Positions 12,552-18,309 of a stretch of 64,000 bases of DNA are shown here, piece by piece. Source of the DNA: Ignisphaera cupida (lineage in GTDB: Archaea > Thermoproteota > Thermoprotei_A > Sulfolobales > Ignisphaeraceae); assembly GCF_030186535.1 (NCBI RefSeq), contig NZ_JASNVW010000001.1, positions 372,001-436,000 on the forward strand. Direction: 5' to 3'. Every line of letters starts with the position of its first letter. The stretch's first letter is position 1. Both the position numbers and the translations under genes were made by a program. Below the pieces are notes generated by a model. The model was not told where the DNA came from, made no database searches, and saw only the letters and a program-made list of their open reading frames with translations.

Positions 12552-12625
12552 GGTGAAGGGTATTCGACCCCGTCGGCTTCTCTCTTCATTCTCCTCGGTT
12601 TCCGAGGTGTCTGAGAGAGCCTGTT
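12552..12625. ncRNA. GC-rich structured element, unknown RNA
   Basis: In an AT-rich intergenic region this stretch is strikingly G+C-rich and folds well. A small hairpin GGGT/ACCC (12558-12561, 12567-12570) precedes a long one. The lower stem pairs 12575-12584 with 12613-12621 (GGCT, one bulged T, CTCTC against GAGAGAGCC, 9 pairs). An internal loop of 8 and 5 bases follows. The upper stem is CCTCGG/CCGAGG (12593-12598, 12602-12607) with a TTT loop. In hyperthermophiles this contrast usually marks a functional RNA. It lacks clear C/D boxes, a K-turn or an ACA at the expected place, so I cannot name it, and the strand is undetermined. It lies upstream of the TATA of the ABC gene. Confidence 0.45.
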
Positions 12626-12688
12626 ATAGCTATTCTAAAAATGCTTAAAAATTTTATGCATTAAAACATGTGTTGGAGTGAATGTAAG

Positions 12689-13590: not shown

Positions 13591-16500
13591 ATGTTTGTAA
13601 AGAACAAACATTTCACTACATGTGCAATAGCTTTGCTACTGATATTGCATTTAATTTTATTTGCTTTCATTTCCACAAGCTATGCTCAGCAGCAACCATT
13701 TATTTTAATGAGGTATAGCTACAAATCATCTGCAAACACAAATACTATTTATCCAGGAAGTAGAAACGTTGTTTTAACCATAAATGTGCTGTATAATGGC
13801 TCTTCAACTGCATTTATATCAGCAGGCTGTATAAATCTTCCACCTAGCTTCTCAATAACAAGAGGCTATAGTTCTTGCTCACCTCCACAAACACCAAATG
13901 GTTCAACGTATAGTGTTGTAGAGCCAGGAGATGTTATAGTTTTTGAATATCACATAGATGTTGACAGCTCAACTGCGCCTGGCACATACATAGCTAATCT
14001 AACAATCTATTACAGGGTTAGCGGATCACAGTTTTCAGCATCCTTGAGTAACATAGCAATAACTGTTTCCCAGTATCCACCAATAAGTGTAGAAGTTGTT
14101 GATTGGTATTGGAATCCTGATGCATATCCTGGTAGTCAGGGTGTATACCTTTATATAACACTTAAAAATAATGGAAATTCGAATATAGTTCAAGCAAATA
14201 GTGTTGTGGAATTACCACAGGTATTTACACCTAATCGCATAAGGTATCAGTTCTCCAATCTGGGCAAAAACCAAACAACAACAATATCGCTAGGACCCAT
14301 ATCAATATATTCAAATGCATTGCCAAACACACAATACCTTGTTAAACTAAAGATTAATGCAACTATGTCTACAGATGACAATGTTATTTATAGTGCACAG
14401 GGAAGTGCAACATTTTATGTAACAGTTTCTCAAGCTCCACAACTTCTCATACAAATTATTGACTATGGAGTTGAGACACCAAAACCTGTGGAAAATGCTA
14501 TTGGAACAAGATTCTACATGACTATAATGAATAAGGATTTCAAAAATATTCGAAGCATAACAGCATATTTCACAATTCAAAGTAATGGATCATTCTACAA
14601 CAACTCTTTAAAAGCTACAACAATTTCTCAACAAACATTGGCATATGGGGATGTTGAAACATTATATAGCCCACCAATAATTTTGGGAAACAGCAATACA
14701 ATATCAATTTCTGTGAAGCTCATAATATTTGGGGATGATAATGGAGCCGAGTTTTGGAGTGAACAGATATACTCATTCAATATTCCAATTCAGAAACCAT
14801 CCATAGATCTAGTTATAACCAATGTTTATTGGTCTTCTGGAGAGGTGTATGCCGGTACTGAGGGAGCAACACTAAACATTGATTTACTAAACTATGATGT
14901 TATTGATGTAAGAGATGCAGCAGCTGTTCTTCAGCTTCCCAAAGGCTTTTACCCATCAACAATCACGGTATCTGGAATCAATATTCAGAGAGGTTCAGCA
15001 GCAACTCTTTCATTTTCAGGCATATCAATTCTAACCAATGTTGCTTTTGGAGAATACCCAGCAAAGCTACTTGTTAATGGAATTGCTTTTGACCCATCTA
15101 CAAATACCTTCTACAAGTTTTCATCTACCTACACTATAAGCATTAAGGTTTTTGAAAGGCCTTTTACAAGAATATTCAATGTTTCCTCTAGTGGATGGGT
15201 AGAGAACAAAGTATATACAACTTCTGTTGGTGTTCATGCCTATGTTTATTTACAAGTTTCTTCACCTGGATATAGAGTTGAGGGAATTAAAGTTAGTGTT
15301 TATCTTCCTAAGGAAATGGTTTTTGAAAATGGAAATAGAAGTACAACAATTGTTTTAGGCAATAATGTTTATAGCTATGGACAAAGCATCCGCATAGAGA
15401 TTGGCCCAATAGATGTTGTTTCAACAGCTGATGGTCTTTATCCGATAATACTTAGAGTAGACTATCTCTCAACAACAATAAAAGGTGGTGGTTACTGGTC
15501 TAATGAATATTACACAATACTTTTACCGATATATAAGCCGTTGCTAAACATTTCGTTGATTGACTATGGATGGGAAAACCAGATAACAACATCTGAGACA
15601 AGTGGAGCATCAGCATACTTCACACTACAGTCTCTTTCAATAGATACTATACAGAACATTGTTTTAAGAATTGAAGTATCCAATGCAGCATTTTTAGATG
15701 GTAGAAACATCTCTGTACAGATAGTGAATGGCCCTATAGACTATGGATCAATTCAAACAGTGGTGTTTAGAAACATTGAGGTTAACAATGCTAGTGGTGT
15801 TGAAGCAAAACTATATTTGAGTGCTGTGGTAAGTAGTGGTAGAGGATCATACTACAGAGCATGGACAGAGTATAGAATTTCTCTAAAAATCATGAACAAT
15901 TTAAACACTTTTAGAGTAGTTGCTTTACATACACGTTTAAATAATGCTTATGCACCGTTATTGCCATCAGCAAGAGAAGTAACAATTTCTATCACTATCG
16001 CAAATACAAAAACATACCAAGTTGCATGGACAAAGCCTGAGATTGTTTTACCGAAAGAACTTAAACTAAATGATGTTACAGGAACATGCTTAAATGGTGT
16101 TTCCTCTGGAGGTATATGCACTATTGACTTAAATGTTGACATTGCAACAACGGCATCTCCAGGGGTAAAGAATATAACTATTCACCTTACCTATGCTGTG
16201 AGAAGCGGACAGGCATTAGTAATTCTCAAAGAAAAGCTGTTAATACCAATTGCAATAGCTTCATACAGTTACTACAAGCCAGAAATCAGCCTCGTTTCGG
16301 TGTATTGGGGTGGTCCACAAGCACCAACAAGAGTGTTGATAGGTCAGAGAAATGCTCCATTCACAGTCACAGTAATGAACAGAGGGTACTACCCCATTAG
16401 TGGTGTTCATATTTATGCAAAGCCTTTGAACAGCTCTATAACATTGTTCAAGGAATCAGATGTTTGCTCTCCTCAACTAGCTCCTGAAGCATCATGTAGT

Positions 16501-18309
16501 GTTACACTATATGCTGATCTAGCCAGTATTGATAAAGCTGGAAACATACTCTTCAAAATCACTGTTGCTTACACATTTACATATTTTGGCACAAACATCA
16601 ATGATTCGCAAAACTTTACTGTAACACTGCTAGTAGATGCACCAGCTTCTGGAAGAGGTTTGGAGATAGTTGATGTTTCCTGGAGCAATAACTGGCCTGT
16701 TTATCCAAATACAGAAAACGTTACACTTGTGATAACAATTGCAAATAGATGGCCATATAGAATATCTGGAGTTGATATAGAGCTTAAACTTCCACAAGGT
16801 TTTTACACAAAGTATGGATCAGTGGCAAAAACATATGTTGCAGGACCTATAAACAGTCTTCAGCAATTCACGGTAACACTTCAAATATCTGTTGGGAATG
16901 TGAAGCCAGGTAGGTATTTTGCAGAGCTTGTAACTAGCTATGTTGTTGAATCGGGATCTCCAAACACCTTAGTTACTGAGAGATATGGTGTAAGTCTCAT
17001 TGTGAATGATTTAAGCAAGAGTATTGATGTTGTTTCTGTGCAGTGGATTGGTAAAACACCACAGCCACCAGAGTATGGAGCAATGCTTATGATTGTTGTT
17101 AGAAACAATTATAATCCATCAATGAAAGGAGTTGTTCTTAACATAAACCTTCCCAAGGGTTTCACATCATCTGATGCCAACAGCTCAAAGGTTTCCATAC
17201 CAGCTTCAAACATAAATGTTTTGCAGCAGCTTCAAGGAATTCAACAACTAAGATATTCAAGCATGCAGCAGTACATGGCATCAATATTATTGCAACAGAG
17301 TCCAGCAAGTGCACAAAGCTTTGGATATGGTGATTTGCTGTATTTCTATGTGAAACTGAATATAGTAACGAATAAAACAGGCTTTTATGTTGCAAATGGT
17401 ACTCTCAATTTTATTGATCAGTGGAACAATGTTAGAGAAATACCAATAGCAATAAATATTAGTATTTTGGGCTCTGCTAAAATAGTTGATGTTTTTGCAC
17501 CTACAACAGTTAAAGTAGTTAAGGGTGTTGCAACACTTGATATAGGCGTTGCTAACAAGGGCTCTGCACCGCTGTACAATGTTTATGTGTATCTCATTCC
17601 ATATGCATCAATGCTTATACCACAGCAAGCAGTTAAATACATAGATTTGTTGCCACCATCAAAAACCGTTAATGTGAGTTACAAACTTGTTTACAACCCC
17701 ATTTCCATTTCCATGGGAGGTACACAAACATATTTAAGATACATGAGCGTGCCATTTTCTCTTTCACTAGTTTATAAAGATGTTAATGGCAATACACAGT
17801 TCTTCAACACATCAATAGCTGTTTTGATAGAGCCATTCATAGACATATCCCTTTTAGATTCCAAGGCAACTCTTTCAGGAAAATCATTGTCTATTTCAGG
17901 AACTGTTGCAAATTATGGAATAGCATCAGCAAGAAGTGTTGTTGTTAAAGCAATTTATGGCAATTCCTATGGAGAAACACTAGTTGGCGACATAGATCCT
18001 GCATCTCAATCCGCATTTAGAATAGAAATAAATGTAAACAACATTAGCAGCAACACTGTTGTGCTAAAGATAGTGTATAGAGATGAATATGGTAGAACAG
18101 ATGTTATTAACTACACAGTTCCAATTATAATACAGCAAACAACATCAACTGTAACGATATCGCAACAAGAAGCAGTTATATACAATCACTATGTCATTAT
18201 AGCAATTATTGCTACATTTCTTACTGTGATAGGCTACTTCCTGTATAGATATGTAAAGATCCATGCTAAAGCCATTGAAGGCTCTATAGAAAGAATTAAA
18301 TGTAGGTAA
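13591..18309 (+). CDS. Giant surface protein of ~12 tandem beta-sandwich repeats, membrane anchored
   Basis: This 1572-residue protein has an N-terminal signal peptide (hydrophobic residues ~10-32, then YAQQQ) and a C-terminal membrane helix (~1540-1560) with a short basic cytoplasmic end. Between them, about twelve units start at roughly residues 40, 168, 288, 408, 528, 654, 774, 899, 1025, 1146, 1296 and 1418. Each opens with a pattern like VVDWYWN...YPGS or IVDVSWS...YPNT and is followed by an Asn-containing strand (LKNNGNSNI, IANRWPYRI). This resembles CARDB/NEW3-type (COG1361) folds. It sits between the ATPase and permease genes, so it probably forms the external part of the ABC complex. 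Many Asn-X-Ser/Thr sites suggest glycosylation. Confidence 0.85.
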   Translation: MFVKNKHFTTCAIALLLILHLILFAFISTSYAQQQPFILMRYSYKSSANTNTIYPGSRNVVLTINVLYNGSSTAFISAGCINLPPSFSITRGYSSCSPPQTPNGSTYSVVEPGDVIVFEYHIDVDSSTAPGTYIANLTIYYRVSGSQFSASLSNIAITVSQYPPISVEVVDWYWNPDAYPGSQGVYLYITLKNNGNSNIVQANSVVELPQVFTPNRIRYQFSNLGKNQTTTISLGPISIYSNALPNTQYLVKLKINATMSTDDNVIYSAQGSATFYVTVSQAPQLLIQIIDYGVETPKPVENAIGTRFYMTIMNKDFKNIRSITAYFTIQSNGSFYNNSLKATTISQQTLAYGDVETLYSPPIILGNSNTISISVKLIIFGDDNGAEFWSEQIYSFNIPIQKPSIDLVITNVYWSSGEVYAGTEGATLNIDLLNYDVIDVRDAAAVLQLPKGFYPSTITVSGINIQRGSAATLSFSGISILTNVAFGEYPAKLLVNGIAFDPSTNTFYKFSSTYTISIKVFERPFTRIFNVSSSGWVENKVYTTSVGVHAYVYLQVSSPGYRVEGIKVSVYLPKEMVFENGNRSTTIVLGNNVYSYGQSIRIEIGPIDVVSTADGLYPIILRVDYLSTTIKGGGYWSNEYYTILLPIYKPLLNISLIDYGWENQITTSETSGASAYFTLQSLSIDTIQNIVLRIEVSNAAFLDGRNISVQIVNGPIDYGSIQTVVFRNIEVNNASGVEAKLYLSAVVSSGRGSYYRAWTEYRISLKIMNNLNTFRVVALHTRLNNAYAPLLPSAREVTISITIANTKTYQVAWTKPEIVLPKELKLNDVTGTCLNGVSSGGICTIDLNVDIATTASPGVKNITIHLTYAVRSGQALVILKEKLLIPIAIASYSYYKPEISLVSVYWGGPQAPTRVLIGQRNAPFTVTVMNRGYYPISGVHIYAKPLNSSITLFKESDVCSPQLAPEASCSVTLYADLASIDKAGNILFKITVAYTFTYFGTNINDSQNFTVTLLVDAPASGRGLEIVDVSWSNNWPVYPNTENVTLVITIANRWPYRISGVDIELKLPQGFYTKYGSVAKTYVAGPINSLQQFTVTLQISVGNVKPGRYFAELVTSYVVESGSPNTLVTERYGVSLIVNDLSKSIDVVSVQWIGKTPQPPEYGAMLMIVVRNNYNPSMKGVVLNINLPKGFTSSDANSSKVSIPASNINVLQQLQGIQQLRYSSMQQYMASILLQQSPASAQSFGYGDLLYFYVKLNIVTNKTGFYVANGTLNFIDQWNNVREIPIAINISILGSAKIVDVFAPTTVKVVKGVATLDIGVANKGSAPLYNVYVYLIPYASMLIPQQAVKYIDLLPPSKTVNVSYKLVYNPISISMGGTQTYLRYMSVPFSLSLVYKDVNGNTQFFNTSIAVLIEPFIDISLLDSKATLSGKSLSISGTVANYGIASARSVVVKAIYGNSYGETLVGDIDPASQSAFRIEINVNNISSNTVVLKIVYRDEYGRTDVINYTVPIIIQQTTSTVTISQQEAVIYNHYVIIAIIATFLTVIGYFLYRYVKIHAKAIEGSIERIKCR

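Follow-up and report, generated by a model that had tools for sequence, protein, structure and literature searches.

A conserved kink-turn small RNA of Ignisphaera as a candidate H/ACA-like guide for the peptidyl-transferase region

Archaeal guide RNAs with and without a lower stem

Canonical archaeal H/ACA guides, e.g. Pab40 and Pab91 from Pyrococcus, carry a kink-turn in the upper stem, an ANA box within 14-16 nt and arms complementary to domain V of the 23S rRNA, and their pocket is closed by a lower stem of 7-9 bp. The stem between pocket and kink-turn has 8-11 layers in the reported range, productive guides mostly having ten, and a productive 5' duplex is the rule that discriminates guides in Pyrococcus. 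H/ACA-like guides consist of a kink-turn hairpin between two free arms, and their ANA or NCA box keeps the canonical spacing (PMC4652768). Such guides without a lower stem were described as Pyrobaculum-specific, alongside a few unconfirmed Pyrococcus candidates, the Pyrobaculum representatives being sR203-sR210 (Bernick et al. 2012, as presented in PMC4652768).

At the peptidyl-transferase region, Thermococcus has three Cbf5-dependent pseudouridines, one of them an orphan without known guide; for the orphan Ψ2589 (2585 in P. abyssi) the authors conclude that an RNA of a new type may be needed (PMC6138745). Based on the spacing of the sites (3 and 15) and the following bases labelled in the figure legends, we would place them at E. 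coli U2493, U2496 and U2511, with the caveat that the methods of the same paper give two labels the other way round (PMC6138745).

Here, we describe a locus within a window of 64,000 nt from Ignisphaera cupida, i.e. the whole stretch of DNA that was analysed. With a probability of roughly 0.6 we regard its product as an H/ACA-like pseudouridine guide that lacks the lower stem, a kink-turn sRNA from the minus strand directed to the peptidyl-transferase region. It resembles sR203-sR210, to which it is likened by description only, in its single kink-turn hairpin, the missing lower stem, the guide arms outside the hairpin and the ANA/NCA spacing. As far as those RNAs are portrayed in PMC4652768, it differs from them in sequence, order and predicted target, and moreover its 3' arm pairs with the rRNA right up to the box, whereas its 5' arm is almost absent in Ignisphaera. 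With Pab40 and Pab91 it shares the upper-stem kink-turn, the box distance and the complementarity to domain V; unlike them, it has no lower stem of 7-9 bp and only 8 layers, as opposed to ten, from basal stem to kink-turn. Since neither the lower stem nor a ten-layer stem was found, we do not file it as a canonical H/ACA guide. By our mapping the Ψ2589 site would be E. coli U2493, the position that immediately follows, on its 3' side, the rRNA strand to which the 3' arm is matched; the comparison of the present family with the euryarchaeal Ψ2589 guide is confined to this putative target site.

A minus-strand RNA gene and its conserved fold

At 12552-12625 the GC content rises up to 55%, as compared to 20-30% in the flanks, and both hairpins that the first-pass annotation had described in this stretch are indeed present: in plus-strand sense, GGGU-AUUCG-ACCC stands before a larger hairpin, whose stem GGCUUCUCUC/GAGAGAGCC has a single bulge and leads via an 8x5 internal loop to CCUCGG-UUU-CCGAGG. 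The RNA itself, however, is encoded on the minus strand, from ~12621 to 12558 (Table 1), and a conserved TATA box lies upstream. This element (TTTTTAA or TTTATAA) is common to 10 aligned genomes and stands ~24 nt before the conserved block. The spacing from TATA box to start is well established for archaea, and a transcription start predicted at ~12621 fits it, which would yield a conserved, independently transcribed small RNA gene with a predicted transcript of ~65 nt. The minus-strand fold is set off from shuffles (z -3.3, 1/200) more clearly than the plus-strand fold (z -1.95), and a plus-strand reading was discarded, as that fold is weaker and without kink-turn and the conserved promoter is on the other strand.

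Table 1. Features of the RNA locus (window positions; all on the minus strand)
Feature	Position	Strand	Remark
TATA-box-like promoter element TTTTTAA	12645-12651	-	T17, A20, A21 invariant in 10 genomes; near-constant distance to the RNA
RNA gene, covariance-model match span	12555-12626	-	90 bits; 82.9 bits in genome search
Short 5' arm GGCU	12618-12621	-	may be paired to AGCC (12575-12578)
Basal (NC) stem, 5' strand CUCUC	12613-12617	-	pairs with 12580-12584
Kink-turn and apical hairpin	12585-12612	-	apical stem CCUCGG/CCGAGG, loop AAA
Basal stem, 3' strand GAGAG	12580-12584	-	pairs with 12613-12617
Candidate 3' guide arm AGCCGACGGGGUCGA	12564-12578	-	complementary to 23S UCGACCCCG-CGGUU (helix 89 3' strand)
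ANA box (AUA)	12561-12563	-	16 nt 3' of basal stem (after G12580)
GGGT/ACCC hairpin of the first-pass annotation	12558-12571	-	can form in the genus and some relatives only

The segment was found in nine of ten genomes of the same genus with 78-98% identity, its flanking DNA not being conserved; the congener in which it was not found (G010) is represented by a 93% complete assembly. With a covariance model, R1, members were detected with confidence in four families of the same order, f1, f2, f4 and f6, and the gene is single copy in the genome, the next matches reaching a non-significant 12.6 bits. Rfam, searched with strict and relaxed settings, gave no match above the gathering threshold, only chance-level matches (E > 1). 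The first-pass annotation was right in taking it for a non-coding RNA, and its conservation between unconserved flanks and the compensatory changes in its stems set the element far apart from chance.

The gene neighbours differ between genomes, i.e. ABC/PadR in five (G000, G002, G004, G005, G006), Cdc6 and/or H+-PPase in G007-G009, DUF973 or an oligopeptide ABC gene in G003/G001, PAC2/OMPdecase in family f2 and DUF998 in f4. Thus, this is an independent gene and, as the first-pass annotation had maintained, no leader of the ABC operon. In the five PadR genomes the RNA points towards padR, ending ~50-100 nt before it, so that a side role towards padR may exist there. That the RNA is a 5' leader or attenuator of padR, acting via kink-turn and L7Ae, is nevertheless improbable, given the Cdc6/H+-PPase, DUF973, PAC2/OMPdecase or DUF998 genes beside it in other genomes and the rRNA complementarity described below, which a leader would leave without explanation. 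Two observations concern the surroundings of the locus: next to its counterpart in G006 (L003, 89-802) repeated peptide-like translations (FYSLMGV / LSTPLWEF) suggest a CRISPR array, and downstream of the ABC ATPase in the window (13591-18309) a very large surface protein of 1572 aa is predicted, for which Pfam gives a weak NPCBM-associated domain only.

On the minus strand the hairpin is built from the C-helix, the bulge AAU, tandem G.A and A.G, an A.A layer and the basal stem of 5 bp, the individual layers being A12612.A12585, G12611.A12586 and A12610.G12587, followed by the bulge A12590-A12589-U12588 and then C12609-G12591. GA is present on both strands of the kink-turn in 25 of 26 members. 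Two bases past an invariant GGGGUC, 17 of the 26 members have ANA and the other nine NCA. This trinucleotide keeps a fixed place in all of them, 16 nt below the stem, a distance that lies in the 14-16 nt range of canonical guides. The first-pass annotation had been reminded of an H/ACA pocket by the 8x5 loop, a hint in the right direction, although the supposedly open loop is the kink-turn on the minus strand; it had found kink-turn and ACA not evident, having missed both kink-turn and ANA box because the wrong strand was read. Overall its interpretation is partly supported: it recognised the kind of element but erred on the strand and the anatomy.

The fold is supported by compensatory changes in the stems, for which the first-pass annotation had proposed to look in relatives. 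Among 26 members, in an alignment fitted to the structure, 97% of the cells are paired (at most 63% in slid controls; 97.7% in the basal stem), both sides have changed in 4/5 basal and 5/6 apical pairs, and there are 62 double-change cells versus 18.5±4 in shuffles, all located in these two stems. An independently aligned set of 11 points in the same direction (16 double-change cells versus 4.3).

A 7-9 bp lower stem that would close the pocket was not found: in 18 members, pairing of the 5' arm with the 3' tail was not clearly above shuffles; the GGCU/AGCC pairing of Ignisphaera is not kept in all congeners, and an intramolecular closing stem in f2, likewise not above shuffles, was dismissed. 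The stem from pocket to kink-turn comprises five standard pairs, A.A and two G.A, i.e. eight layers. A 3' GGGG/CCCC hairpin was also rejected as structural element, as it is not kept outside the genus. The GGGT/ACCC hairpin of the first-pass annotation can be formed by the sequence, but does not hold as a conserved element outside the genus: none of its pairs has changes on both sides, it is lost in several distant members, and it coincides with the 3' arm, which is kept for its sequence and not for pairing. Box C/D sRNAs have a C box (RUGAUGA) near the 5' end and a D box (CUGA) near the 3' end; upon inspection of the minus strand AAUGAAG and CAGA occur inside the hairpin in reverse order, without terminal boxes, and this class was discarded.

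Several other kink-turn RNAs were observed. A similar hairpin resides in L252 (G121, 42-206) and L257 (G139, 38-212) inside an apparent tRNA gene intron (Rfam tRNA match spanning 165-175 nt); the host may be tRNA-Tyr, as judged by eye, and the hairpin perhaps an intron-encoded H/ACA-like guide. In f5, L151, L152, L159 and L160 contain another kink-turn RNA type, flanked by GGACCUCC...CCGCAGAC and with AUCCGUCGGUGCGCGC as an example of its 3' arm; it likely represents a guide family of its own. Further, f2 genomes harbour a second kink-turn RNA with GGCCCUGCUGAAGCUCCCG ... GAAGCAGGGAGGGUCACCCC (L249 in G018, L250 in G038).

Complementarity of the arms to 23S rRNA

E. coli numbering was set from the A2503-U2504-G2505-U2506 motif, which we take to be universally conserved. 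U2504 is a pseudouridine in E. coli; the equivalent 23S position is C in Ignisphaera and part of f2 (L061 and related 23S loci).

In Ignisphaera conservation along the gene is highest in the 3' arm, the box and the stems. The conserved arm, AGCCGRCGGGGUC, is complementary to 23S rRNA. In the scanned rRNA, i.e. the available part of one 16S-23S operon (G003), the best match of AGCCGACGGGGUCGA is the 3' strand of helix 89 (-27.4 kcal/mol), where the arm can be placed contiguously along UCGACCCCGCGGUU (E. coli 2479-2492), which gives 14 base pairs and leaves one base of the arm bulged. Helix 89 ranks first of the rRNA windows in Ignisphaera (-24 to -27 kcal/mol), in f1 and for some members elsewhere; its rank is 3-40 in most f2 members and f4, and 5-7 in f6 G032/G051. 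Shuffled 3' arms equalled this pairing at the site in 0/400 and anywhere in 1/400 cases, and the diverged arms AGCC[A]GC, AACUGC, AACU[A]GC and AACCGC still pair with helix 89.

Alternatively, the arm can be split, GGGGUCGA pairing with UCGACCCC (2479-2486) and AGCCGRC with GUCGGCU of helix 90 (2505-2511), 18-19 nt apart. The two placements exclude each other in their full extent. For f1 g4/g5, an internal mismatch interrupts the pairing with helix 90, and no 23S rRNA for a compensatory test was found in those assemblies. Kink-turn RNAs from Pyrobaculum-like f25 were not accepted as homologues and were left out of the member count, as their GAGCCGGU fits 23S ACCGGCUC (~2451-2458) and their helix 90 differs (GUCGUCU); a search for the helix-89 guide pattern in f25 gave three matches and no kink-turn RNA. 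In their own right, the f25 RNAs of L240 and L242, with this 3' arm, may be guides acting near U2457.

The 5' arms converge on a neighbouring site, which speaks for the region around helix 90. In three other families and one congener the arm pairs with UUCCCAUCC (2513-2521), just downstream: the 5' arms of three f6 species differ in sequence and each form 8-9 bp with 2513-2524, and in f4, f1, G149 and G003 UGGGAA (GGGAA in G013) pairs with UUCCCA. At this shared site the differing arms mostly score within the best 0.1-1% of rRNA windows; G016 and G013 (f1) are only in the best 4-10%, and pairing in f2 is weaker, mostly no better than 3-20% of windows. Pairing of the 5' arm with U2493-G2505 gave no signal and was dropped. 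Where the 5' arm pairs, exactly U2511-C2512 stays unpaired between the two duplexes of the split placement, which is the geometry of canonical guides. Judged by the Pyrobaculum type, the family has the kink-turn hairpin without lower stem and ANA or NCA. As to two arms complementary to rRNA around an unpaired U-N, a match is seen for the 3' arm, and for the 5' arm in f1, f4, f6, G149 and G003, weakly in f2 and not in the RNA of the window.

Arms rich in GC readily find pairing sites in GC-rich rRNA, as shuffled arms average -20.7 kcal/mol at their best sites, and the scan covered only rRNA, and of this a part of 16S/23S. One might suspect that the kink-turn RNA binds a different partner, be it an mRNA, a tRNA or solely protein, and that its match to 23S rRNA is incidental. 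We consider this very improbable, as helix 89 ranks first in the genus, arm variants keep pairing and independent 5' arms meet on one neighbouring site.

In Ignisphaera the 5' arm appears nearly lost, GGCU probably being its remnant: at the 23S site matched in other families this arm shows no above-chance pairing in the window, and nine of ten members of the genus lack the pairing, G003 being the exception. Since a productive 5' duplex is decisive in Pyrococcus, the absence of a usable 5' arm argues against a guide in this genus (except G003), where modification is therefore uncertain. The contrast to f1, f4, f6, G149 and G003 might even indicate a guide in decay, working elsewhere and drifting here after the loss of its arm. 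This is quite improbable, since exactly the 3' arm, the box and the stems are the gene's most conserved parts in Ignisphaera.

Predicted action at the peptidyl-transferase region

Most likely the RNA helps to modify or fold the ribosome. For protein binding, catalysis and target nucleotide we infer the following scheme for the guide reading: L7Ae would bind the kink-turn, and Cbf5-Nop10-Gar1 would dock on basal stem and ANA box. The single-stranded 3' arm would engage the peptidyl-transferase region of 23S rRNA: GGGGUCGA would pair with UCGACCCC of helix 89, and GCCGAC would either continue the helix 89 duplex as far as U2492 or turn to GUCGGC in helix 90 (2505-2510). The 5' arm, where present, would pair with UUCCCAUCC, leaving U2511-C2512 unpaired, and the product would be a pseudouridine at U2511, or at U2493. 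Thus, U2511 and U2493 are the predicted candidate targets, the latter if the helix 89 pairing places the target. If our mapping is right, both would be known Thermococcales pseudouridines, and the one at U2511 would be made without a guide in Thermococcus.

In Ignisphaera, with the 5' arm almost gone, binding or holding helix 89 may be all that the RNA does; where this arm is missing, the guide reading is rivalled mainly by a chaperone-like or residual role. A kink-turn RNP that bridges the 3' strand of helix 89 and, given a 5' arm, 2513-2521 could delay formation of the peptidyl-transferase core during assembly without guiding any modification. With 14 pairs the duplex exceeds the normal length of 3' guide duplexes and would be in competition with helix 89 itself, the helix 89 pairing alone remains in Ignisphaera, and with both arms at their best sites ~20 nt of rRNA are looped out and not two. 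The fixed spacing of ANA/NCA in 26/26 members, in contrast, is a feature for Cbf5 docking, and the site of the 5' arm directly adjoins U2511, as a guide requires, which makes a pure chaperone unlikely for the family. Such a chaperone would resemble the H/ACA-type RNP snR30/U17, which pairs with two separated rRNA segments without demonstrated need to modify; unlike the present RNA, snR30/U17 is eukaryotic, involves 18S rRNA and has two hairpins.

Within the guide reading we tentatively suggest, as a possibility with the odds against it, that the missing lower stem is supplied in trans by the target, GGGGUCGA and rRNA UCGACCCC forming the stem and the adjoining segment guiding U2511 or U2493. 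If so, the rRNA itself would complete the H/ACA fold, and the RNA would be a crenarchaeal counterpart of the 'new type' of guide for an orphan domain V pseudouridine.

As an H/ACA-like guide without lower stem, the RNA would extend this class from Pyrobaculum to another order, and a covariance model is at hand for finding such guides. Moreover, a concrete RNA and uridines can be named in the peptidyl-transferase region, where one archaeal pseudouridine is without a guide, and a genus that has lost the 5' arm offers a natural experiment on what a guide requires.
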